Shown in pieces: positions 7,078-63,678 of a DNA stretch of 64,000 bases. Both the position numbers and the translations under genes were made by a program. Positions within the stretch are counted from its first letter, which is position 1, and each line of letters opens with the position of its first letter. The stretch is from Salminus brasiliensis. Lineage: Eukaryota; Chordata; Actinopteri; Characiformes; Bryconidae. Below the pieces are notes generated by a model that ran no database searches, was not told the DNA's origin, and saw nothing but the letters and a program-made list of their open reading frames with translations. The stretch spans positions 7,680,526 to 7,744,525 of the forward strand of contig NC_132881.1 of assembly GCF_030463535.1 (NCBI RefSeq), given 5' to 3'.

Positions 7078-7335
7078 TAAAAAGGTAAAGGTGCAAGGAT
7101 TTGTAAAATGTACAGTGAAATGTGTGCTCCGCATCGGTCCCATTCGTGGTAGTGAGCACACACACCTGAAGCGCTCCAGGGAGCAGTAGGGGGTAAGGTG
7201 CCTTGTTCAAGGGCACTTCAGCCATGGGTTGAAGGCGTGGAGCTCTGCCCCCACCCCCAATTCTTACCTGCCAGTAGGGTTTGAACCGGTGACCTGGTCT
7301 CAAGCCCACTTCTAACCAGGACTTCTAAGCCACGA
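7078..7335 (-). mobile_element. tRNA-derived SINE, diverged copy
   Basis: In minus orientation it has an A-box-like and a B-box-like head (near 7270-7330), a central 'TTGAACAAGGCACCTTACCC' V-domain-like region and a tail ending in a 'CACCTTTACCTTTT' type. It is the same superfamily as the copies at 46.8 and 63.4 kb but clearly older. Confidence 0.75.
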
Positions 7336-7339
7336 CTCC

Positions 7340-7456
7340 CCTCTGAGGCACCTGGGGAGCAGAGAGGGTTAAGGGACTGGCCCAGGTATCAAACCCAGGT
7401 ATCAAACCCACAACCCTGTCATCAATAGCTTGGTGCACTAACCACTGACCCACTAC
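7340..7456 (-). mobile_element. Second SINE fragment
   Basis: This adjacent fragment retains the 'ggggagcagagagggttaag' segment and a head with 'caaacccacaaccctgtc', lacking the middle and tail. A 15-bp direct repeat ('atcaaacccaggt' type) lies inside it. It is either a separate insertion or a rearranged part of the preceding copy. Confidence 0.6.
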
Positions 7457-16080: not shown

Positions 16081-16278
16081 CCTGTAAAAGTGCAAAGTAA
16101 CCCTTCTGTGGTAGTGAACACACACACACCCAGAGCGGTGGGCAGCCAACTCCAGCACCCGGGGAGCAGAGAGGGTAAAGGGCCTTGCTCAAGGGCCCAA
16201 CAGTGAGCCCGGGAATCGAACCCACAACCTTGTTATTGATAGCCTGGCGCTCTAACCGCTGAGCCACCGCTGCCCACC
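16081..16278 (-). mobile_element. tRNA-derived SINE (V-type), lacking most of the tail
   Basis: Minus strand: head 'gtggctcagcggttagagcg' (A box) and 'gtgggttcgattcccgggct' (B box), body 'cccttgagcaaggcccttta' and 'gctccccgggtgctggagtt'. The L2-like 3' tail present in the 46.8 and 63.4 kb copies is cut short. This is the commonest SINE family in the window. Confidence 0.88.
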
Positions 16279-20375: not shown

Positions 20376-20570
20376 TTGGTTGGTGTGGCGCAACAGATAA
20401 CACCACCACCTACCATTGCGTTACAACAACACTTTGTGGGAGACCAGCACTACACCAATAAGGGTCCTTTGGCAAGACTGCTAGCACTACATTGGCCCAC
20501 CTCTGTAATACGAGTAACCTTGTAAGTCGCTCTGGATAAGAGCGTCTGCTAAATGCCGTAAATGTAAAGT
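20376..20570 (+). mobile_element. tRNA-derived SINE with L2-like tail
   Basis: Head 'tggttggtgtggcgcaacag', body 'ggcaagactgctagcactac' and tail 'gtaagtcgctctggataaga' followed by 'gcgtctgctaaatgccgtaa'. Same family as the copy in ephx1 intron 2; the B box is degraded here. Confidence 0.85.
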
Positions 20571-22150: not shown

Positions 22151-22401
22151 TTAAAAGGGAAAGCTCTGTCCGATACAAGGCTTTAGCCTCTAAGCGTGTG
22201 GGATTTGAGCCTCAGTCAGCTGGACGTCCCTGCTACACATGGGCATGGGACCATTGGTTCTTTGGTAGTTTGGTTGGATCTTGAGCAGACAACGGCTTGT
22301 TTCATCTCATTTTGGCTCTTTTCCTAATAAACATATTATTTTGCCACTCATTCCGACTAAAGATGCTCCATCCATCCATACACCATCTATCATGCAATAG
22401 C

Positions 22402-22516
22402 CACTGTTGGGCCCTTGAGCAAGGCCCTTTACCCTCTCTGCTCCCCGGGCGCTGGAGTTGGCTGCCCACCGCTCTGGGTGTGTGTGTGTGCACTCACTGC
22501 CCCTAGTTCACTAGTG
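22402..22516 (+). mobile_element. SINE body fragment (no tRNA head)
   Basis: It begins at 'ccactgttgggcccttgagc' and runs through the 'gctccccgggcgctggagtt' section to the CA-rich zone, the middle of the V-type SINE. The head and the tail are absent, and it abuts the tandem array that follows. Confidence 0.8.
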
Positions 22517-22518
22517 TG

Positions 22519-24215
22519 TGCGAGTGTGTAACAGGTAGGTGATCATTCAGTTTTTATACATATATTGACTTTCTTTTTTTGTCTTACAGGTTTTTCGGAC
22601 CGCATGAACCAAGGGTCTGTGCATCTGTAACTGTGTGTGACTCGCTACTATCTGTCTGCAAGTGTGTAACAGGTAGGTGATCATTCAGTTTCTATACATA
22701 TATTGCCTTTTCGTTGTCTTACAGGCTTTCAGGACCAATGGCTCCCCCCTTCCTGATAGTGCATACAGCCAACAAGGGTCTTTCCATTGCCACTGTGTGT
22801 GTGGCTCGCTATCAGTCTGTCTGCAAGTGTGTAACAGGTAGGTGATCATTCAGTTTCTATACATGTATTGACTTTCTTTTTTTGTCTTAAAGGTCTCTCA
22901 GACCTCATGAACCAAGGGTCTGTGCATCTGCAACTGTGTGTGACTCGCTACTATCTGTCTGCAAGTGTGTAACAGGTAGGTGATCATTCAGTTTCTATAC
23001 ATGTATTGACTTTCTTTTTTTGTCTTACAGGTTTTTCGGACCACATTGATCAAGGGTCTGTGCATCTGTAACTGTGTGTGACTCGCTACTATCTGTCTGC
23101 AAGTGTGTGACAGGTAGGTGATCATTCAGTTTCTATACATGTATTGACTTTCTGTTGTCTTACAGGCTTTCAGGACCAATTGCTCCCCCCTTCCTGATAG
23201 TGTATACAGCCAACAAGGGTCTTTCCATTTCCACTGTGTGTGTGGCTCGCTATCAATCTGTCTGCAAGTGTGTAACAGGTAGGTGATCATTCAGTTTCTA
23301 TACATGTATTGACTTTCTTTTTTTGTCTTAAAGGTCTCTCAGACCTCATGAACCAAGGGTCTGTGCATCTGCAACTGTGTGTGACTCGCTACTATCTGTC
23401 TGCAAGTGTGTAACAGGTAGGTGATCATTCAGTTTCTATACATGTATTGACCTTTTTTTGTCTTACAGGTTTTTCGGACCACATTGATCAAGGGTCTGTG
23501 CATCTGTAACTGTGTGTGACTCGCTACTATCTGTCTGCAAGTGTGTGACAGGTAGGTGATCATTCAGTTTCTATACATGTATTGACTTTCTGTTGTCTTA
23601 CAGGCTTTCAGGACCAATGGCTCCCCCCTTCCTGATAGTGCATACAGCCAACAAGGGTCTTTCCATTGCCACTGTGTGTGTGGCTTGCTATCAGTCTGTC
23701 TGCAAGTGTGTAACAGGTAGGTGATCATTCAGTTTCTATACATGTATTGACTTTCATATTTTGTCTTAAAGGTCTCTCAGACCTCATGAACCAAGGGTCT
23801 GTGCATCTGCAACTGTGTGTGACTCGCTAATATCTGTCTGCAAGTGTGTAACAGGTAGGTGATCATTCAGTTTTTATACATGTATTGACTTTCTTTTTTT
23901 GTCTTACAGGTTTTTCGGACCACATTGATCAAGGGTCTGTGCATCTGTAACTGTGTGTGACTCGCTACTATCTGTCTGCAAGTGTGTAACAGGTAGGTGA
24001 TCATTCAGTTTCTATACATGTATTGACTTTCTGTTGTCTTACAGGCTTTCAGGACCAATGGCTCCCCCCTTCCTGATGGTGCATACAGCCAACAAGGGTC
24101 TGTCCATTGCAACTGTGTGTGTGGCTCGCTATCAATCTGTCTGCAAGTGTGTGACAGGTAGGTGATCATTCAGTTTCTATACATGTATTGACTTTCTTTT
24201 TTTGTCTTACAGGTT
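22519..24215 (+). repeat. Higher-order tandem array with intron-like monomers
   Basis: Twelve monomers start with 'aggtaggtgatcattcag' at 22533, 22671, 22836, 22974, 23112, 23277, 23415, 23550, 23715, 23853, 23991 and 24156 (the last partial). Spacings follow 165-138-138, so three monomer types (A, B, C) form a higher-order unit of about 441 bp repeated over three times. Every monomer carries a donor-like CAG|GTAGGT, a branch-like TTGAC, a pyrimidine tract and an acceptor-like TTACAG (TTAAAG in type B) only 52-55 bases later. Exon-like parts are 113, 83 and 83 bases but contain stops in all frames, so no protein is implied. The array ends about 470 bp upstream of the cystatin start. Confidence 0.9.
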
Positions 24216-24489
24216 TTACCTTTAGATAACTGACCCTAAACCTGTTCTACGATTTCACACCACAACCACAACTTTGGATTTAATAAACCTCAAAAAGATA
24301 AGGAGCAGTTTAAGATGGCTTTAAATGTGTGCTTTTAACTTGTGTGGGTTTACAGTGCAAACAGGCTACAGGTCTTGCTAGTTCAGGGAGGGAGGTGAAA
24401 CTGCCCTAATCACACACCCTAGATGTGTTTTCCAAATCATGGCCAGCCTTGAGAAATCTGGGCTGACTCATTCTGAAGCGTCCACGCAT

Positions 24490-24681
24490 CGACCAATCCG
24501 CTTTCACCAGGGCTTATGTGATTGGACGAAACAAAGGCCCGCCCACACCCCACACCCCCCTCCTGCTGCTGGGCTTCGTGCTTATATAACCGCAGCGGTC
24601 GCCTGTTGTTTTCGTCCTCGGAGCCTCCTGTTGTTTCGCTTTAGCTAGCATCGACTGAGGCCATCGACTGAAGATCAAGCC
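24490..24681 (+). promoter_or_regulatory. Cystatin promoter with TATA and CCAAT boxes
   Basis: A TATATAA element lies at 24583-24589, about 95 bp upstream of the start codon. CCAAT boxes lie upstream on each strand (CCAAT near 24493; ATTGG near 24520), with a GC box-like CCCGCCC at about 24539. This is a conventional TATA promoter for the cystatin gene. Confidence 0.65.
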
Positions 24682-25185
24682 ATGTTTTGGAAGGTTGTCG
24701 CCCCTCTCCTGGCCGTCTGCTTGGCCGTGGCGAGCGCTGGCCTCGTCGGAGCCCCCGCAGAGGCGGACATGAACGACAAGGACGTGCAGGATGCCCTGCA
24801 GTTCGCTGTGGCCCAACACAACAAAGCCAGCAACGACATGTATGTCAGCCAGGTTGCGAGAGTGATCAGCGTCAAGAAACAGGTAGGACAGTTGATCCTA
24901 AATTCTGTGTCCGTCCATGAGGAGATATCCCACTAAGGAGTGGCCTTTTCTGATTATTTAATAACCCTTATCCGGGGAGGAGATGTTAGGGGCGTTCCTC
25001 CTGGACCGTGCTGGATGGGCTATTCATCGTGATCTACAGGACAGAGAATAGAGAGGTGCCCCTCTGTTGATGTGTAGGGGGCCTTCTTCTCCCAGGCTCT
25101 CAGCCTCCTCTCATTGTTTTCTATCTGTGAAATAATAGCCTGCTTGTTTCCAGGCCTCCATTCAGTCACTTTCAGAGATGATTTA

Positions 25186-25218
<33 letters not shown>

Positions 25219-25526
25219 GAGATTATTATATTATTGTGAATAACCATTATATTAATTCAATTGTCATCTGGTTTACAGTTGTAGGTGTTTCCACCACGAA
25301 CTGAACCTTTGAAATGTCTTTTGGACAGTCATTTAGCATCTGACCAAAATGGCCCTCAGTGGATGAGGGGACACTAGTTAGTCCACTATGCTGAAGGGAC
25401 ATTTCTGCACAATTCAGTGATCTAAATGCTTTGGATCTTTCTATGCTACTGTAAACTATTCTGGCTTCTCTCAAACGTAGCATAACACCAACATCACAGA
25501 ATATGTAAACAACTGTATACATATTC

Positions 25527-25584
<58 letters not shown>

Positions 25585-26050
25585 CAAGATGTTGCAGGTT
25601 TAGGGTTAGAAAGCAGGAATGGTCAGGAAACGCCACAGAGAGCTTCATAATACAGAGTAATTAAAAACCTTCCCACGTTCTCCTCCTCCTCCACCATGAG
25701 TAAACTTACTGGTGTGGTCTCCATATAATCCCAATGAATACATCTTATTTCCGCTCTTAGGTTGTTTCTGGACTGAAGTACATCTTCACAGTTGAGATGG
25801 CCAGAACGTCCTGCAGAAAGGGTGGAGTAGAGGAGGTGTGCGCTGTCCAGGCCGACCCAAATCTGGCTCAGGTCAGTTGAACGTCTTTTTTTACAGTCAT
25901 TTACTGTGCTGTTTTGTGTTCAGCCTAGACCTGTAAGTTAACACAACTCTGATTTGTGTCTCTTCCCTCCAGCACCGCCAGTGCAAGTTTGCCGTCTGGA
26001 GTCAGCCTTGGCTGAACAGCATCAAGGTTGTTGAGAATACCTGCAAGTAG
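24682..26050 (+). CDS. cst3: Secreted type-2 cystatin (cystatin C-like), 3 exons
   Basis: Coding exons 24682-24882, 25761-25871 and 25973-26050 give 129 residues with phase-0 junctions, the conserved three-exon layout of type-2 cystatins. In the family these proteins inhibit papain-like cysteine proteases such as cathepsins B, H, L and S in extracellular fluid. A signal peptide ([20 protein letters not shown]) precedes the mature chain. The inhibitory wedge is complete: an N-terminal glycine (LVGAP), the QVVSG loop formed across the exon 1/2 junction, and the C-terminal PW loop (SQPWL). Four cysteines (SCRKGG, EVCAV, QCKF, NTCK) fit the two disulfides. Orthology to CST3 rather than another fish type-2 cystatin is an inference. 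A polyadenylation AATAAA lies at 26098-26103. Confidence 0.92.
25187..25217. repeat. (ATT)n microsatellite in cystatin intron 1
   Basis: About ten ATT triplets inside cystatin intron 1. Confidence 0.9.
25536..25582. repeat. (TA)n microsatellite in cystatin intron 1
   Basis: About 23 TA dinucleotides, likely length-variable, inside cystatin intron 1. Confidence 0.95.
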
Positions 26051-31996: not shown

Positions 31997-34900
31997 ATGA
32001 GGGTGCTGACTCAGGAAGAGCTGAAGCTGGCGGAGAGGGCGCTGAAAGGCTACTTACCGAGGTCCCAGCAGGTGTGTAGAGACGACCATTACCTGTGTTA
32101 CCAACGCAGTGTTTATTTCAGAGGATGTGAAAACCTCCTATTTCCCGAACCACTAATCTGGCTGGCGCGAGACTACGGTTGGCTTCGCACGTGAACTTTC
32201 CATTCCACCTTAAATGGTGGTCTATGGCTGGAGCTAACTACGGCACCATTTAAGGTGGAGCCGGAGCCGGAACTCCTTACCACTATACTCAAAATTAACA
32301 GCCAGGCAGTTTTAGACATGTGTGGAAACTAGTGTAGCACGGGGGCAATGACGCAACGCTGCACTTCCGGTGCCGAATGCGCACGCGACGTCCCATTTCA
32401 ATGCACCCCTTAGAGGGTGCAAATCTCAGCCTAGCTCATTTGACCTCCAACATGTGTGTGAACAATTCACACCATTTAGGATGATCATCTAATGCCACCC
32501 TTTTACATTTCTAGTAAAATTTCTAGCAAGGTTTTTGCTGATCCCAACCAAATGTATGTTTTGAGCTTCTGCTGAGGAGGAACAAGGTTTCTTGGCCCAC
32601 TATGATAATCAGCAGGATACTTAAATACCACCGAGGCGTCCAACTTCATCTGAACTCAAACTGAGAAAGGTGATCAATGAGAGAACCATTTTTGAGGCCT
32701 AGGGTTATATATATTCCTTCACGTCTCCTCGTTCTCTTATAACTAGGGCTGGGCGATATGGTAAAATGTTATATGCTGATATTCAAAGCCTTTTTCACGA
32801 TACTTTAACAATACATCTCATTACCTTAAATGGTGGTCTATGGCTGTTGATAACTACGGCACCATTTGAGGTGGAGCCGGAGCCAGAACTCCTTACCAGC
32901 TTACGCCAAGTCTGGTGCACGCAGAGGTCAGCAGGTATGTTAGGAATACACTATGCTCAAAATGAACAGCCAGGCAGTTTTAGACATGTGTGGAAACTAG
33001 TGCGGCCGGATCTGTGTAGCACGGGGTCAATGACGGAGCGCTGCACTTCCCCCACTTGCCCCATTTGAATGCACCCCTTAGAGGGTGCAAATCTCAGCCT
33101 AGCTCATTTGACCTCCAACATGGGGTTGGGAAGCCACATTTCTAGGCAAGGTTTTTGCTGATCCCAACCAAATGTATGTTTTGAGCTTCTGCTGAGGAGG
33201 AACAAGGTTTCTTGGCCCACTATGATAATCAGCAAGATACTTAAATACCACAGAGGCGTCCAACTTCATCTGAACTCAAACTGAGAAAGGTGATCAGTGA
33301 GAGAACCATTTTTGAGGCCTCTTTCCATGAGCCATCTCTCACGTCTCCTCTCTTTTTTTCTTTTCTTTTTTTTTATAACTAGGGCTGGGCGATATGGTAA
33401 AAATGTTATATACGTTTTTTTTCCCTTTTTTTTTTATAACTAGGGCTGGGCGATATGGTAAAAATGTTATATAAGTTTTTTTTCCTTTTTTTTTTTATAA
33501 CTAGGGCTGGGCGATATGGTAAAAATGTTATATAAGTTTTTTTTTTCCTTTTTTTTTTATAACTAGGGCTGGGCGATATGGTAAAAATGTTATATAAGTT
33601 TTTTTTTTTCCTTTTTTTTTTATAACTAGGGCTGGGCGATATGGTAAAAATGTTATATAAGTTTTTTTTTCCTTTTTTTTTTATAACTAGGGCTGGGCGA
33701 TATGGTAAAAATGTTATATAAGTTTTTTTTTTCCTTTTTTTTTTATAACTAGGGCTGGGCGATATGGTAAAAATGTTATATAAGTTTTTTTTTTTCCTTT
33801 TTTTTTATAACTAGGGCTGGGCGATATGGTAAAAATGTTATATAAGTTTTTTTTTCCTTTTTTTTTTTTTTTTTTTTACGATACACGATATTTATCACAA
33901 TACATCTCATCACAGTCCAAATACATCAGTAGCAACAGATTCTAATAAACTACTATTCAGATACACTCCCATACTGAATACAGTTACCCTAATTCAACAT
34001 CTGCTGCACTTCATCCAATTAAACCAGTCTAATTACACTGTTTGTATTGAAATCTGCAGCTGATCAGTGTTTATTAACAACTAACAATATCCCCAATATG
34101 CTTAGAAAAGCATATCATGATCATAACAAAATTGATCATGATACAATAAAATATCGTCATATTGCCCAGCTCTACTTATAACCCATAACTATTTTCAAAT
34201 CCACTGTATTAAGCGCTGCCCCAAAAGCCAGGCTCTGCTATGCAAAGACTGGAGAACAGTAGTACTGGTGAGCTGGATATGAGCAGAGTGAAGACGTGTG
34301 GTAGCAGAGAGGCTAGTCCTGCTGCCTGAAGGAGACTAAGAGATATTTAGAGATTTATTAGAGCAAATGCGTGAAAAATCCTAGTGTTGTATGAAGTCTC
34401 ATGTGTCTTAAAATGTAGACTGAAGACCCACCTCTTCAGAGAGTACTTGGGTGAGGAGTAGAGTATTATGGTCTCCATATTGGCTTGTGTTTAGTAGTAT
34501 CTAAGCTTGGAGGCATCTATGAATTTTTAGTCTATTCAAACTAGCTGAGGTTCCTCTTGAGAAAACAGTGAAGCACTTTTGTAAGTCACTCTGGATAAGA
34601 GCGTCTGCTAAATGCAGTAGATGTAAATGTATAGGGATCTTCTTAAATCTAACTATGTTGAATGATCTGACTTTACATGTATGTGTGTTTGGTGGTAGTT
34701 GGTCAGGACTGGACAAATAATCTAATAAAATGTGGCAAATGTAAATAAAAATAATTTATTTACTGCAAGGTTACATAGACTAGATCCAGAAGCTTAATAC
34801 ATGATTTTAAATCCTTATTAAAACGTTCAGTTTTTGTTTCCAGGTTTATGGCTTTGTTTTTTTAATCAATCGAGTTGAAGCTGACCGTATAGATGTGCTA

Positions 34901-37379
34901 GTGGACCGTTGGCCAGAATTCGACGTGCTTCTCGTCAGACCTGTGAAACAGGAGGCAAGTATGTCTTGTATAATAATGTGCTGAGAAAAGTAGTTGTTGC
35001 TTAGTCACCACCTTAATGTTGGCTTTTACTCTCGCCTACAGGAAACAGACCTTTATAAAGGCATTAGCATTTTTACCAGAGATGAAGCTGCTCTCAAAAA
35101 AGTACTACTTGGGAAAGATATTCTCGACTGGACGCAGTACAACTGTCTAAGTATTAATATCTTTCTTATTATGAATGTAGAAACGTGTCAAAGGAATGAA
35201 TAGGCCAGTTACACAGACCTAGATTAAGCAAAGAAATAATGAGTCACCAGGGGCACGCCTATATAGGAATGTGAACTTTACAGGACACAGAGAAAGCCTT
35301 CTTAACTTTCAGTGGAAGTCATGCCACATTGTAAAGAAGAACGGCCAGATTCAGTGAAAATGGAGTGAGGTTATATTAGTATTAGTTCAGTAGTTTGGAA
35401 AATTGACTTTTTGAATAGTGACCGCTGCCACAACCTGCGGTAAACAGTGTCCCAAAACCAAGGTCTGTCCCGTGTACACTTTCCCCTGAATCTCACAGGA
35501 ATCTATGAATTGAATGAAGGTCGTTTAGTGGTTAATAAGCAAATAATCTGTGCTGATAGACCTAATGAAATAATGTTGCCTGAGAGTAAGTCTACTATTA
35601 AACTGCATCTATTATCATATAACAAAACTGTAGGCTTATGCTGCCAAAGGGCCTTCCTGCAGTCACATGTAGCAGTGTTTACATTTTGTCTCTTTCACAA
35701 TCTTGTAATTTAGGATTCAGCAACATTTGACAAGTACAGAGAAGCATTCAGGTTTGAAATCTGAAATTCATGTCTTGACAGTTACAGGTTGACCTTTGCA
35801 CTTGAACTTTTTTCCTTAGGTTTTGACGTTTGCCATGCAGAGACCATGAAAGCAGTAGCAACCCACAAAGGTGTGGCAGAGACCCAGCTATCTTTGTGCC
35901 ACATGATGATACTGCAGGATCTCTCCAAACTTCCAACTGATGGGTAACTTGTTTCGTTTGGTTTTTTTTATATGCACATTCTAATGCTGGATTGAAGTGC
36001 TTTACACCTGGGTGTCACCAGCATGATTAACAGAGGACAGGTATTGCTGCAGGATTTCATTCCAGCCAAGCTGGGCACATGATTAGTTGTGTAAAGACTA
36101 ACTGTGAGAGACCAACTGATTAAATAAGGAATCAGGTGTGCTTCTGTTTGACTGTAATACAAACAGTCACGTTGCAGCCACGTTTGCAGAAATTATGGTA
36201 TGGAGTAGGGAATGGACAAATATTTTATAAAATAAAAAGGAAAACTAAGTAAAGTAAATGGAATATCAACAAAACAAAATATAAAAAGGCAACTAAAACA
36301 TGCCAAAATTATATAAAATATGTTGTGGGGTAATTTACCACAGCATGGCGAAGATAAACCTTAAAGAAAAGTATTACAATTTATGTGAAAAATTGAGACA
36401 TAAAAAGAAACATTAGTAAAAAGGTGCAGTAAAAGTATATAATAATCTTATGTATTAAAACGAATCAAAAGCTGATACTAATGCTTAAACTAAATTATTG
36501 GATATCATTGATCAGATCATTTCAGTTCTGATGACCGCGAGCGGGTCCACTTTGGTAGTTTCCACAGCTTAAAGTTGAACACAACAAGTTCCTATGTAAT
36601 ATCACAGTTTCCTCATTAAACACAACAACCAGTCCTTGTGGGCCAAAAAAATCATTTTAAAAAGTAAAGGAGAAGAAATGAGTGGTTGGACTTTACGCAG
36701 TGCAGAACAGGCATGCGCTGACCACACTAAGAAGAAGTTATGAGGAACTTCACTCAGATAGACCGTTTTCCCGTAGTTCTTACTCTTATAGCCCAGATTA
36801 AGTTTCAGTTCTTCCTAATACAGCAAAAGTATCTTAATAACAGCCTTTAGCAGAACATCTCAGTCTTCTGAAAAACAAACACCACACCAAACAACCTCCA
36901 GGACTAAGATTCGGAGTCCCAGCTTAATGTCTGCTTAACCTTTATTTCTGTTTACCATCCACAGGCTCTCAGTACAGGTGTCCTCTCTCAAAGAGGCTCA
37001 TGTTGCTCTGGTCAATGGTACCTGGAAGTTTGGCAGTGGAAAATTCAGTGAACGATTGATTAGGAACATGATCCTGAATTACCCTTCGTGTTGTGTGCTG
37101 GGCTCAGATGGTCAGCCAGTTGCATGGATACTGACCTATTCTTACTGTGCAATAGGAATCCTGTACACTCTACCAGAGCACAGAGGGAAAGGCTATGCCA
37201 AAGCCCTGATCAGTGCCATGGCAAAAAAGCTCTTTTCTGAGGGCTACCCAGTGTACTGCTACATTGAGGAGGAGAACAAGCTGTCCTACAGGCTCTTTGA
37301 AAGTTTGGGTTTCAAAGAGGACCCGTCTTACAGGGCTACTTGGTACAGCTTCAACCAAGCATTACTTAGTCCAAGATGA
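31997..37379 (+). CDS. Glycine N-acyltransferase-like protein, 5 exons
   Basis: Coding exons 31997-32071, 34844-34954, 35042-35150, 35820-35943 and 36965-37379 give 277 residues; all phases agree. GLYAT-family enzymes transfer acyl groups from acyl-CoA to amino acids, mainly glycine, in mitochondria. The N-terminal aralkyl-CoA N-acyltransferase domain runs from the start ('LPRSQQVYGFVFLINR') to about residue 185. A C-terminal GNAT fold follows, with the acyl-CoA-binding loop 'YTLPEHRGKGYAKALI' (residues about 207-222) and 'YRLFESLGFKED' near the end. Length agrees with human family members (about 290-300). Intron 2 uses a GC donor (34955-34956) rather than GT. Intron 1 (2.8 kb) is enlarged by a duplicated hAT MITE region. 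Which GLYAT/GLYATL paralogue it corresponds to is not resolved, so no symbol is given. AATAAA at 37466-37471 may be the polyadenylation signal. Confidence 0.9.
32207..33373 (+). repeat. Direct tandem duplication of a 616-bp unit
   Basis: Unit 1 begins at 32207 ('accttaaatggtggtctatg') and unit 2 at 32823 with the same words. Long identical stretches follow in both, for example 'gagggtgcaaatctcagcct' and 'gaggaggaacaaggtttctt', so the duplication is recent. Each unit ends with the left terminus of a hAT-like MITE. Small indels distinguish the copies. It lies in GLYATL-like intron 1. Confidence 0.88.
32744..34174 (+). mobile_element. Rearranged hAT-type MITE with 8-bp target duplication
   Basis: The left terminus 'tagggctgggcgatat' at 32744 and the inverted right terminus 'atattgcccagctcta' ending at 34174 are flanked by identical octamers CTTATAAC (32736-32743 and 34175-34182). 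This is the hAT signature. The interior has been split by the 616-bp duplication and by amplification of the left terminus. No transposase is present. Confidence 0.8.
33374..33878 (+). repeat. Eight tandem copies of a MITE terminus
   Basis: Eight copies of a unit of about 60-64 bp, each 'tataactagggctgggcgat' plus 'atggtaaaaatgttatata' and a T/C tract, run in direct orientation before the rest of the MITE resumes near 33878. Copies are nearly identical except for T-tract length. Confidence 0.92.
34400..34635 (+). mobile_element. LINE 3'-end fragment
   Basis: It contains LKTHLFREYLGE-like coding words ('gaagacccacctcttcagag') followed by the 'gtaagtcactctggataaga' plus 'gcgtctgctaaatgcag' tail. 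That tail is typical of fish L2/CR1-type elements and shared with the SINEs at 12.8 and 20.4 kb. Truncated at the 5' side. Confidence 0.65.
35965..36185. mobile_element. Dispersed hAT-like non-autonomous repeat
   Basis: The segment has the words 'tgctgcaggatttcattcca' and 'gaatcaggtgtgcttctgtt', which I associate with an old fish/vertebrate non-autonomous DNA repeat. Ends are not well defined. It sits in GLYATL-like intron 4. Confidence 0.4.
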
Positions 37380-44477: not shown

Positions 44478-47400
44478 ATGACAGCCATCTCACAGGACAG
44501 CGACAGGGAGAAGGTAGGCCTCGCCGCGCTGTTTCCGCTGTGTTAGCCCGCTCGCGCGCGCTCGTTGTTCAGAAGTTAGGGAGGAAGGGAGGAAGGGAGG
44601 TAGGGAGGAAGGGCGGAAGGGCGCACCTGGAGAAGTTCGTAGAACTTCACATGATCAGCAGCTGTGGAGCAGCCCACATCAGATCAACGTCCCCATAACA
44701 TAACAACGTTCAGCACTGAAGCTTATCCCGTAACCCTACCGTTAGTAGCTAACGTTTCAGGAACGTTCTGAAAACGTCTGACGTGATAATGGTTTGCATC
44801 ACAACGTTATTCGAACGCTTCGCACACAACGTCACCCAGCTGACGCTAGTTGAGCTCTAACGTTATGGAGACGTTTGAAGTAACGTTCCCAAAACGTATA
44901 GTTAAAAAAAAAAAAAAAAAAAAAAAGACCCAAATTCAGTCAGATCAAACGTTACCAGGACGTTGCTCATTGTTTGATTAAAACGTTTTGGCAACGTTGA
45001 GAAAGCTTGCAGTAAGGGCAATGAGTGCCAAAAAAGGGTCTACTAACTGAAAGGGTGGGCTGGTAGCTGGTGGACAGGCCTGAATCTTTCATATTCACTA
45101 AACTAAATAGTTTCATAATAATAATAATAATTTTTTATATTTGTATGTTCAGGCACATGCATGTAATGCCGCCTTCAAGTTGTGTCTAAAATATATGGAC
45201 AAGATGTCTGGTTATAGATGCCACAGCATAGTTGTATTTACTAGAGGGAAACTGGTAGTTATTTAGCTGTAAAGCGTGGAAACTACTGGTTAACGTAGTC
45301 TTAATAGCTTACAGATAAGTGCATGCTGCAGATGCTTCTTACTAATTTTCATACTCCGCTCTTTGTTTTCTAGCATTGATGTTAAATATCCCTTTCAGTA
45401 AACACCCACCGTTATCACAGGGCTGATTACAGCAGCTGGTGTCTGATGGTGAGACGGAAAAACAGAAGTAAACAAACAAACAGCAGCAAGAACACACTAG
45501 AAATCTTAGGGCGTTAATGTGGGTGTCCTTGTTTGGATGGATTCTCAAGTCCAGTGTGCATAACCTACAGTATCTGGCCAAAAGTAGCTGGACACGACCG
45601 TGTGTTTGGGACCTCAGCTACTTTAAGGTGGACCCATTGCTGACACAGGTGGATTGCTTGCTTACAGGTGGCTGTTCTCTTAATTCAGTATCGGTTTATT
45701 GCTGTTTTGCTTTTTATTGTTCTATCCAGTGTCGACCAGAGCAGGATGGGTTCCCTTCTTGAGTCTTGGTTCCTCTCGAGGTCTCCTCCTCTTGATCCGA
45801 GGGATTGCCACTGGTTTACTCAAAAGAGGCTTGGACCCGGATCTCTGTAAAGCTGCTTTGTGGCAACATTTGTTATGAAAAGCCTTTAGAAATATTAACA
45901 TTTGAATTGAATCAACTCATGTCTTAAAGAATTTCCTATATATATATATATATATATCTCATGAGTCTAATTCAACATGACCAATGCCAAGCTGCACCAC
46001 AACCCGATCCAGGATTGAACCTTGAGTTCTCTAGAGAGGTGGATCTTCATCATCAGATACCTTTGTTGTGCCATTTCTTTTGGTAATCCTGTGGCCCAAG
46101 ACCGATGAAGTGGCCAGGTATAAATGGGGCCTATGTAACCTCTGACGTGAGGTGGTCCTCTCATAAGTGGGCCCCACAGCTCTATTACATTCCAGTAAGG
46201 AGGCTGAGGGCTTCTCCATTTGAGTAGTGGCTCCTTTTAGATACTACAGAATCGTGAGAACATCATTGCCAGATGTACAGATTTCTGCTCTGTGTCACAG
46301 TCGTTTTCTCTGCAGTAATCGACTCCATTTAAACTGTGCATGAGTCAGTAATTTCATTAGGGAGGGCATGTCCTCCTTGAAACTGCCATGTACATCTAAA
46401 TCTGCTTCCGTAACTGGAAATCAGGTTGATGTCAAGATGAAACATGTCCACGAGTTGTAAATTTGTCTGTGTAATGGGCTGTTCAGGAGTTCCTTGTTTC
46501 AAGTTGTATTTCCTGGAAGGAACACATGTGATCTTTATCTGTTTTCTCCAGAAATGGTGATTCAAAATCATGAGTTCTTGTTTGAACCATCGTCTCCAAC
46601 CCTCTCACTGCCGCGTGTAGAGAGACCGAGACCGAGAGCGAGACCGAGAGCGAGACAAGTAGTGCAGATGGCTTGCAAATTTTCAGTTAAATAGCCTCAT
46701 AGATGGGCTTGTGTTTTTAGCCCAAATAGAGAGGACTCCTCTTGTTTCATTGACCCACCGACCTCTAGATTGGCCGTCCTCCATTAGCCTAGCTTCTTTT
46801 AAAAGGTAAAGGTAAAGGTGCACGTATTTGTCACTGTACACTGTACAGCGAAATGTGTCCTCCGCATTTAACCCATCTGGTAGTGAACACACACTCACAC
46901 ACACACATGTGTTAGGGGCAGTGAGTACACACACACACCCAGAGCGGTGGGCAGCCAACTCCAGCGCCCGGGGAGCAGAGAGGGTAAAGGGCCTTGCTCA
47001 AGGGCCCAACAGTGGCAGCTTGCCGAGCCCGGGAATCGAACCTACAACCCTGTTATCGATATCCCGGCACTCTAACCGCTGAGCCACCACTGCCCACTGA
47101 GAGCAGTGTTTTCCAGCTAGGGCCATCTTCTCTTACTGTCATGGACAGTAAGTTTGACTAATTGGTTTACGCTGTGGCGTCAGGGTGTTCATGCACCCCC
47201 ACAAACCTAAATCACTTTGGTCAACATAATCCAGGACCGCCTTTAACTACACTATATCTCTAAATGTTTGTGGACAATCCGTCTAATGAATGCATTCAGC
47301 TACTTTACTTTACGCATGCACTCACTAGCTTGTCTAGTCCCTGTAGTGCTGACAATAGATTAGGACTCTCTGGAGCAGATGACCATGAATCTATTGGCAC

Positions 47401-53400: not shown

Positions 53401-56400
53401 GTATTATTATCCCCAAATTTCATTTTAACGTTATTCAGAATTTGATTATTCAGAATTTGATTATTCAGATGCTGCTTCCCCATTTTATATATATTTTTTC
53501 AATATTAGTTATTTTAGTTCTCTTTAAATTTTGTAATTCAACATATGCCGAAAGACAGGCAGCCAGCAATGTCCACTGGGACAACAACAAAAAAATTTAC
53601 AGACCCCTTCAGTGAGGTCTACCTGAATATGGTTCATATTTCCATGATTCATGATCTGTTGCTCAGGATACAAAATTCTGGTGTTTAGACTAATTTCAAT
53701 TAGAACGTAATGACTTTTGGCTGCCTCTAAAATGGCATCTTTTATTTGCCTACATCACCAAGGGCAAATATAAGAATATGTGATATCATGTTTCCTGGTA
53801 TTTATAAATAATAAGCTGTCGCAGAACCGCCCCCAAGACCCCATTGACTCAAATGAAATGTCTTCCTTTTGCTCACTAGATGGGAAAAGTAAAAGTAAGT
53901 AATCCATTCTTTCCCATATCTGCTACACTGTAAAAATTGGTTTGCCTGTTCAGCCTAAAATAAATGACTTTATGTTAAACATAACATGCCATTGAACTGG
54001 ATTTATCCAACTCAAATAAATACTATGAATCGAATAATGGTTCATTCAAAGTATTTCTTTGAGTTGAACAAACCCAGTTGCCCAATTGCGTAATACAACA
54101 TGAAATCATTTTTAAAAGGTGTTTTATTTATTCATTTATTCATGTATTTATTTATTTATTTATTTTTTTGAAAGGCATACCACTTTTTATAGTGTGGCTG
54201 TTGTGAGGGAATGGATGGATTACTTCCCTTGAGCGAAACAAGCAAATCGCCACCTAGTGTACTGAAGTTTCTACTCTTGCTCATATTCTGGCTTTTGTTT
54301 CAAAATGATCACTGAATCATTTTTTTTATGCACAATATAGTAAAAAATAAACAATGTATCACATCAGACAGCTTTATCATTATTTACTTACTTTATGCCA
54401 TTTTATCACCATTTCTGCTTCCTCTCTGCTGCTGTATCATGTATTTATCAGACTTTGACACTGTATATTTAACACCTACCAACTGTACCTAACCTGGACA
54501 TTTTGAAGGGTCTACTTTATATAGAGGACATGTGTGGGAGTGTGCTTACAGTGATTTTATGGAGATGGAGAGTCAGATAATTGAGGTGTGCTCTGGCTGG
54601 ATTAAAACGTGCACCCACACTTGTCCTGTGGAGATATCATTGGACACACCACATGTTTCCTGTGCAACCCACACAAAGTCACTAGCAACCACATGTACCA
54701 AACAAATGGGGGCAGCAGCCTTTTATTCTAGGGTCAAACTGATATGAAAGCTTTGTGACAGATATCGTTTTCAGGTGGCTGGAAATTGCAATAACTAGTA
54801 GCATTGCCCAACATAATTTTATGTTTCATAGTTTCATAGTGTATTTATAGTGACTAGCACCTTTACCTTTTTAGTTTTTTAAAAATAGAAATATTGAAGC
54901 ATGGGAGAGTGGGTTTTATTTTTTTAACATTGGTATTTTGTCCAACAGTTCCATCATCTTCATAGAAATAGATTTTTTCTATATTTATATAACATGCTAT
55001 GCTCATGCCAAAGTTCAGGTTTGGACAGCACTTTATGATTGAGTTAATATAACCTTGTACCTTTCTGGTCTCATGAATGTTCTGCTTTTCTGTGTTTGCT
55101 ATTTCAGCTCACTGTGAGGAGGAAAAATGCTAAAGAAATGTTTGGTGGCTTCTTTAAGAACATGGTGAAGAGTGCTGATGAAGTCCTCATCTCAGGGATT
55201 AAGGTTTTGCATTTTTTTTAATATGCTGATATAAACATATCTTTTTTTTATGGATGTTAATCCGTAGGTACTATCCACTCTGTGCAGCCAGACGTTCAGT
55301 AGTAATCATGCATGTTAACTACCATTGGGAATTCTGTGTGTTGCAGGATGTTGATGAGTTCTTTGAGCAGGAGAAGACTTTTCTCCTAGATTATTTTAGC
55401 AAGATCAAGGATTCAACTGCCAAAGCTGAAAAGATGACCAGAGCTCATAAAAGTAAGGTCTTAAGATGCAGCATCTATAACTATATTCAGCCAACAGGTA
55501 GAAAAGCTCAAAATGCTGCTCTTTGGGAATAATTCTAAAAGCTCAGCACATATTTGTGCTGATAACCCTCACACCAAATGTGGAAATAATTATCTTTAGA
55601 GAGCGTCAACTTTTTACAGATAAGGTGGGTTACATACAGGCTGAAATGAAAACTAGTCATTGCCTTACTTTTTTTGCTTCCTCCCTTTAGATGTTGCTGA
55701 TGATTACATCCATATTTCTGCAACATTGAACAACATTGGTGCAGAAGACAATACAGCCCTAAAAACGTGAGTACTCTGTTCTGATGAAAAGGAAATGCAG
55801 GTGAGGTCTTCAAAGGTAGCATTTCTACACACCATGTGTAAGATTACAAAATAGGAACTTCAGTTTGGGGTCTATTCTTTTATGTTTGTACTCCATGCAA
55901 AAAATAACTTATCACCTTGCAATAAAACAAATCTGATATTGTGTTCTTATTTTGTAAGACTATGATATGTAGTGTGTGTCTTTCTTTTATGTATAGCAAC
56001 ATGAAACCTGGACATGCTTGTATAGCAGTATAGATTTAACTATCTTCCAAAGAAAACCTCACACAGCCATTAATGTCACAGTGAATATGTCCAAGTTGTG
56101 TCCAACTGACTCATTAGTTCCAAGGTTCCAGGTGTAAATGAGGAACAGGGCTGTTAAATGCAGTGCTTTGGGTGCAGTTCTCCGATACTGGCCGCTGGAT
56201 ATTCTACATGGTGCCTCATGACTTTTCTTTATTTTGTAACCCTTGTTGGTCATTCACATATGTTCGTGTCGTATGGCCACCCCTTATTTTCTAACGTTTC
56301 AGTTCATTTGACTCTCTTTGAATTGGGCCAGCAGAGGGAGCTATAATACAAGCAACCATTTTTTCTGTGGTTTGGCATCTGTATGGTTTCAAAGGCTAAC

Positions 56401-63395: not shown

Positions 63396-63678
63396 TGGGC
63401 AGTGGTGTTTCAGTGGTTAGAGCGCCAGAATATTGATAACAGGGTTGTGGGTTCGATTCCCAGGCTCGGCAAGCTGCCACTGTTGGGCCCTTGAGCAAGG
63501 CCCTTTACCCTCTCTGCTCCCCGGGCGCTGGAGTTGGCTGCCCACCGCTCTGGGTGTGTGTGTACTCACTGCCCCTAGCTCACTAGTGTCTGTGTGTTCA
63601 CTACCACAGATGGGTTAAATGCGGAGGACGCATTTCGCTGTACAGTGTACAGTGACAAATACATGCACCTTTACCTTC
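63396..63678 (+). mobile_element. Full-length tRNA-derived SINE
   Basis: Plus strand: head 'gggcagtggtgtttcagtgg' and 'gtgggttcgattcccaggct' (B box), body 'cccttgagcaaggcccttta' and 'gctccccgggcgctggagtt', tail 'tttcgctgtacagtgtacag' to 'atgcacctttaccttcaa'. The A box is slightly mutated. It is the best plus-strand copy in the window. Confidence 0.92.

Follow-up and report, generated by a model that had tools for sequence, protein, structure and literature searches.

A higher-order tandem array with intron-like monomers upstream of a cystatin gene in Salminus brasiliensis: probably a minisatellite in which splice words were copied along

Introduction

Just upstream of a cystatin gene of Salminus brasiliensis, about 1.7 kb of DNA consists of tandem monomers, each of which looks like a short exon joined to a miniature intron. 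The locus raises the question whether such monomers are ever spliced, or whether a set of splice-like words was simply multiplied along with a repeat unit. An earlier note on this DNA had set two possibilities side by side: either the repeat had multiplied a coincidental likeness, or transcription of the array would give many alternative ultrashort introns. Here, the array was analysed together with the 64-kb stretch of DNA in which it lies (the window, 64,000 nucleotides). We consider it probable, at roughly 0.7, that the array is a locus-specific higher-order minisatellite whose splice words were copied along without upkeep for splicing.

Structure of the array

Tandem Repeats Finder reports a period of 441 with 3.9 copies, 96% matches and a score of 3176 (Table 1), and the tandem array is far beyond chance. 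Parsed by its donor-like word, it falls into 12 intron-like and 11 exon-like segments. The former are 55 nt (7 copies) or 52 nt (5 copies) long, and the latter are of three types, alpha, beta and gamma, whose lengths of 83, 113 and 83 nt sum to 279. Successive donors are spaced by 138, 165, 138, 138, 165, 138, 135, 165, 138, 138 and 165 bp; the single 135 in place of 138 shortens one higher-order unit to 438 bp.

Averaged monomer identity is 96-99% within a type and 83-91% between types, and the full higher-order copies, of which there are three, share 96.8-97.9% of their bases, as would be expected if a unit of several monomers had been amplified. The copies are arranged head to tail, and the blocks are more alike than the monomer types; both are hallmarks of a higher-order tandem repeat, i.e. 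a minisatellite. The earlier note had described a satellite-like 441-bp unit made from spacings of 165, 138 and 138, intron-like parts of 52-55 bases and exon-like parts adding up to 279, and apart from the one 438-bp copy this description holds. No second site of the repeat was found in the 64-kb window, where the sole recurrence is a 10-mer, GTCTTACAGG, present once at 37325. This favours a repeat that is specific to the locus.

Table 1. Positions of the array, its segments and neighbouring features, numbered from the first base of the window.
Feature	Position	Strand	Remarks
SINE fragment, both ends cut, adjoining the array on the left	22400..22529	+	93-98% identity to window copies
Higher-order tandem array	22515..24214	+	unit 441 bp, one copy 438; 3.9 units
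Intron-like segment 1, 55 nt, preceded by SINE sequence; most open donor of 12	22535..22589	+	predicted unpaired probability 0.47
Exon-like type alpha, 83 nt	22590..22672; also 23031-23113, 23469-23551, 23910-23992	+	
Intron-like segment, 52 nt, TTGCC (branch A lost)	22673..22724	+	
Exon-like type beta, 113 nt	22725..22837; also 23166-23278, 23604-23716, 24045-24157	+	
Intron-like segment, 55 nt, AAG acceptor	22838..22892; also 23279-23333, 23717-23771	+	
Exon-like type gamma, 83 nt	22893..22975; also 23334-23416, 23772-23854	+	
Predicted 64-nt RNA hairpin burying the donor	22932..22995 (and six other copies)	+	z -2.8 to -3.3
Intron-like segment, 55 nt	22976..23030	+	
Further intron-like segments	23114-23165, 23417-23468, 23552-23603, 23855-23909, 23993-24044	+	
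Last intron-like segment	24158..24212	+	acceptor one of four tied best AGs of 4030 (+ strand, approximate matrices)
Right flank to the cystatin ATG	24213..24681	+	AATAAA 24282, TATATAA 24583, five upstream ATGs
Cystatin gene	24682..26050	+	coding exons 24682-24882, 25761-25871, 25973-26050; PF00031 E 2.9e-21

Splice-like words and their chance level

The donor-like word CAG/GTAGGT is present in all 12 intron-like segments. The branch-like word TTGAC is found in 11, the exception being the copy at 22673, and all 12 end in an acceptor-like AG, which is CAG in nine and AAG in three. The T-rich tract is not continuous throughout: the copy at 23717 has an interruption, and most of the 52-nt copies have other bases within it. 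The array thus has the GT-AG ends, branch site and pyrimidine tract of a spliceosomal intron, with the branch or the acceptor decayed in 4 of the 12 segments. According to the earlier note every monomer carries all four elements; this is accurate for donor and acceptor, fails for the branch word in one copy, and is true of the T-rich tract as far as its presence goes, not its integrity. The incomplete retention of the words, with the branch A missing from one copy and AAG in three others, speaks for the minisatellite reading.

Donors and acceptors on the + strand were scored with weight matrices of approximate frequencies. On this scale the array donor is equalled or surpassed by 18 of 3931 GTs, a number that includes the 12 equal array donors themselves, and the top four of 4030 AGs are all array acceptors; the remaining array acceptors score 2.8 to 8.9, compared with 5.6 and 9.0 for the two cystatin acceptors. 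When short GT-AG pairs with a branch word are ranked, 10 of the top 11 lie inside the array, and the best such pair on the - strand scores far lower. The top pair elsewhere on the + strand is 66 nt long, at 55625-55690, with a score of 14.67. In 32 Mb of simulated sequence (16 Mb of order 1 and 16 Mb of order 3) no pair of 45-70 nt equalled the four best array pairs, and pairs equal to the ordinary array pairs arose 11 times in each 16 Mb, or 0.09 times per window.

A matrix-free rule gave a much less extreme picture and was given more weight than the matrix scores. Three versions requiring at least 8 of 9 donor matches yielded 0.04, 0.34 and 0.65 chance pairs per window; these stricter versions recovered 5, 8 and 11 of the 12 donors, with 0, 0 and 1 hits in the remainder of the window. 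The loosest version (at least 7 of 9 matches) yielded 3.0 chance pairs per window; it recovered 8 of the 12 donors, picked up 7 words lying upstream of these and had 3 hits in the remainder. How improbable the splice likeness looks depends on the scoring scheme.

The resemblance is strong, and four pairs unmatched in 32 Mb together with the four top AGs make pure coincidence uncomfortable, which counts against the minisatellite reading. The matrix-free rates of 0.04 to 3.0 chance pairs per window are nevertheless compatible with a coincidence copied by the repeat, and since a fish genome amounts to thousands of such windows, the chance capture of one such stretch by a repeat is quite possible.

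Conservation along the monomer

Differences between the monomer types are unevenly distributed. In the exon-like part they amount to 32% in the 5' part and 7% in the last 43 columns, and in the intron-like part to 1.6% in the first 35 nt and 16% in the rest. The least variable block of 56 columns, a window size picked after the alignment had been seen, contains 3 variable columns (p < 0.0002, 5000 column permutations), and the longest invariant run measures 23 columns (p 0.026). This block extends from the 3' part of the exon-like segment to just 5' of the branch A and excludes the pyrimidine tract and the acceptor. Conservation does not follow the boundaries of a splicing unit, in keeping with the minisatellite reading. 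Patchy exchange between monomers accounts for the unevenness as well as selection does; the low-variation block could be a product of selection, a point on the other side. Within types, the invariance of the donor is uninformative for recent change, since the 17 variable columns would all miss the 9 donor columns by chance with P = 0.29.

Intron length and accessibility of the donors

In a survey of 172 vertebrate genomes the likely minimal intron is 76 bp, with a steep fall-off below that size in teleosts (PMC9438311). The intron-like segments are about 20 nt shorter, which argues for a minisatellite. On the other side, splicing is reported for human introns as short as 43, 49 and 56 nt (PMC4463651, PMC8363638), so that 52-55 nt is not impossible. 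Donors and acceptors need not be paired within one segment: among 78 possible combinations of donor and acceptor, 66 lie 187-1678 nt apart, which are ordinary intron sizes, and the pairs that skip monomers exceed the 76 bp minimum. If the array is transcribed, monomer skipping or a single 1678-nt intron would accordingly be likelier than ultrashort splicing.

In a 150-nt context, the seven donors that follow 83-nt units are predicted to be buried in a hairpin, with unpaired probabilities of 0.01-0.03, compared with 0.17-0.38 for the four donors after the 113-nt unit and at least 0.25 for a further 12 donor-like words of the + strand. The 64-nt hairpin has a predicted energy of about -20 to -23 kcal/mol and pairs the 3' end of the exon-like segment with the donor. 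It stands out at those seven donors; at the other five, i.e. the first donor and those after the 113-nt unit, z is 0.6 to -1.1. Among 240 background 64-mers, 3.7% have z <= -2.5. Missing from the 113-nt type, the hairpin is not conserved across the array. Whole monomers fold mildly better than shuffles (z -1.6, two tested), the intron-like segment alone hardly so (z -0.3). The burial of most donors fits a minisatellite without upkeep for splicing, although the second cystatin donor (25872), which lies outside the set of 12 words, is itself predicted to be mostly paired (0.09), and burial is therefore no proof of disuse.

Between the two possibilities of the earlier note, the evidence leans to the copied coincidence on account of segment length, buried donors, decayed words and conservation that is off the splicing boundaries. 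As to the other possibility, alternative introns in a transcribed array would not have to be ultrashort.

Relation to the cystatin gene

The joined cystatin exons match PF00031, and the array ends about 370 bp before a TATA-like word that is a candidate cystatin promoter, confirming the earlier placement of the array just upstream of such a promoter. The AATAAA word in the right flank, 70 bases past the last array acceptor, may be due to chance since the + strand of the window has 73 such words.

This position suggests another reading, in which a spliceosomal intron was expanded in tandem. In transcripts beginning upstream it would run from the donor at 22535 to the acceptor at 24212, or be spliced by monomer jumps, possibly as an alternative intron of the cystatin 5' leader. 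Most or all of the array would then be spliced out. A donor opens the array and an acceptor closes it, as in an intron, a point against the minisatellite reading; the first donor is predicted to be the most accessible and the seven buried ones are all internal; most donor-acceptor pairs have ordinary intron sizes; and the last acceptor is among the top-scoring AGs of the approximate matrices. Fission yeast introns over several tandem duplicates of AGGT segments are also reported (PMC4974935). Against this reading, the TATA-like word, already a candidate promoter of the cystatin gene, is 3' of the array; five ATGs lie between the last acceptor and the cystatin ATG; and the AATAAA could terminate a transcript early, notwithstanding its frequency on this strand. 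Weighing these points, we regard an expanded intron as unlikely.

A more specific version is an expandable 1,678-nt intron with an open donor flanked by a SINE, a very strong last acceptor and internal donors that are mostly silenced by a hairpin contained in the 83-nt units; changes in array copy number would tune splicing or the leader of the adjoining cystatin gene. Such an element, a minisatellite whose repeat unit is a splice-site cassette, seems to us quite improbable.

The SINE flank and the edges of the array

The SINE fragment that directly adjoins the array has three further copies in the window, to which it is 93-98% identical over 93-130 bp (16113-16205 and 46889-47016 on the - strand, 63476-63592 on the +), and all four share an identical 21-nt core. 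We take this four-copy family to be of a fish type and presumably tRNA-derived. Compared with the fuller copies, the fragment beside the array is cut at both ends; the fuller copies have a tRNA-like head, for which ARAGORN listed no tRNA. The copy at 16.1 kb is without part of the body present in the others, and weak partial matches are seen at 7170-7214 and 7348-7384, both on the - strand. The first donor lies within roughly 20 bases of the left end of the array and the last acceptor a few bases short of its right end, and ACAGGT stands at either edge.

The truncated SINE beside the array might indicate a composite mobile element, in which a SINE and variable-number repeats, as in primate SVA, were inserted as one unit. 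However, no direct repeat of at least 8 nt, as a target-site duplication of a SINE-VNTR retrotransposon would be, was found between 22331-22420 and 24206-24345; three monomers aligned with two SINE copies no better than shuffles did (p 0.09-0.31, 300 shuffles); and the 64-kb window contains a single combination of SINE and array. A composite element is accordingly very improbable. The same shuffle-level alignments led us to reject a SINE origin of the monomer; the values of p 0.007, 0.000 and 0.000 obtained for the left flank are circular, as the flank that was aligned takes in the opening bases of the array itself.

True ultrashort introns, each 52-55-nt segment being removed singly to give a non-coding RNA with many exons, variably chosen, would fit the 8 of 12 segments that combine the donor with TTGAC and a CAG acceptor, and the splicing of a human 56-nt intron that has conventional signals requires SPF45/RBM17 (PMC8363638). 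Yet the segments are below the likely vertebrate minimum, more than half of the donors (7 of 12) are predicted to be buried, no spliced frame is open, and the acceptor is AAG in three copies with the branch A lost in another, which makes this reading hard to credit.

Reading frames

Stops interrupt the joined exon-like units in every frame (forward 9, 20 and 8; reverse 14, 7 and 13), and the same holds for all six frames of the unspliced array. No open frame runs through the spliced exons, as it would in tandem coding exons; a coding array with ordinary splicing is ruled out, the earlier observation of stops in every frame is upheld, and the minisatellite reading gains. Frame 1 of the exon-like units (22590-24157) is open in 8 of 11 copies.

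Two weaker donors alter this picture somewhat. With one that lies 4 nt downstream, frame 1 is kept and has 3 stops in 358 codons, all due to one type-alpha change, versus 22 and 23 stops in the remaining forward frames. By arithmetic the frame would also be kept with a donor-like word seen 11 nt upstream in 7 copies (7 of 9 matches), giving exons of 72 or 102 nt, and the monomer spacings of 135, 138 and 165 are all multiples of three. These features, with the open copies of frame 1, could be remnants of a coding gene with tandem exons. Neither alternative donor comes close to CAG/GTAGGT in strength, however, and the downstream one would leave introns of 48-51 nt; the units are related and hence offer few independent codons, several frames and donor choices were examined, and a three-unit translation of the array matched no Pfam family (best E 0.12). 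The near-open frame is likely a chance effect of related units, and a coding relic is scarcely believable.

Proposed origin and comparison with known systems

The higher-order minisatellite would have started from one monomer of 135-168 nt with a short GT-AG intron-like stretch beside the truncated SINE. Tandem duplication of this monomer would have been followed by divergence into three types (83-91% identical on average), and the three-monomer block would then have been amplified about four times, presumably by unequal exchange, giving copies that are 97-98% identical. The splice words would have been carried with the repeat unit rather than maintained for splicing. Whereas the array, its higher-order structure of three types, its junction with the SINE and the partly decayed splice words are observed directly, we infer the order of events, the unequal exchange and the lack of function.

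Higher-order repeats are exemplified by alpha satellite. As in such satellites and in minisatellites, the monomer types are repeated as a block and the blocks are far more alike than the types; unlike the satellites, the array has about four blocks in 1.7 kb, is located beside a gene and has intron-like words in every monomer. In the tandem duplications described in PMC4974935 the repeated segment likewise has AG/GT words, so that duplication multiplies GT and AG sites, but the unit studied here holds a full donor-branch-acceptor set and has no known host exon, coding frame or transcript. The IR1 array of Epstein-Barr virus with its W1 and W2 exons provides a precedent for the skipping of units; it differs in having 3 kb units, a promoter, protein coding and established splicing (PMC5834210).

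Introners resemble the array in their many near-identical intron-like copies, and the ACAGGT at the array edges resembles a short target repeat; the array copies are tandem at one place and not dispersed (PMC9860276), and no dispersed copies were found outside the array within the 64-kb window. Ultrashort human introns (37-65 nt) are similar in size and, in the 56-nt HNRNPH1 intron, in conventional signals; they differ in being single introns of known genes (PMC4463651, PMC8363638). For these, splicing was supported in 15 of 22 candidates (PMC4463651). Among the literature matches listed, no such array is described in the titles and the beginnings of the abstracts, and five array words of 14-17 bases, looked up in the papers searched, turned up a single one, on another subject to judge by its entry. 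Exact array words have 0 matches in viral contigs and prokaryote genomes, and blastn of the array in phages gave no match; as non-fish collections, these carry little weight.

If spliced, the array would be a vertebrate case of tandem duplication mass-producing introns and would bear on intron gain. An unspliced array would be a neat instance from nature of convincing splice signals that arose and spread in non-functional repeats, and a warning for gene finders and for those who read sequence only.

Other features of the window

Pfam searches were run on 6 of 38 ORFs as well as on the array translation and the joined cystatin exons, and identified three further gene families in the window: p31comet, epoxide hydrolase and glycine acyltransferase. 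Rfam at gathering thresholds gave just two hits in the whole window, both outside the array; these are UnaL2 LINE 3' elements, at 20509-20562 and 34568-34621. With its UnaL2 elements, SINE and animal genes, the content of the window is teleost-like. A second tandem array, at 33354-33868, has a 61-62-bp unit in about 8 copies with 95-96% matches, and contains GGGCTGGGCGATATGG and long T runs.
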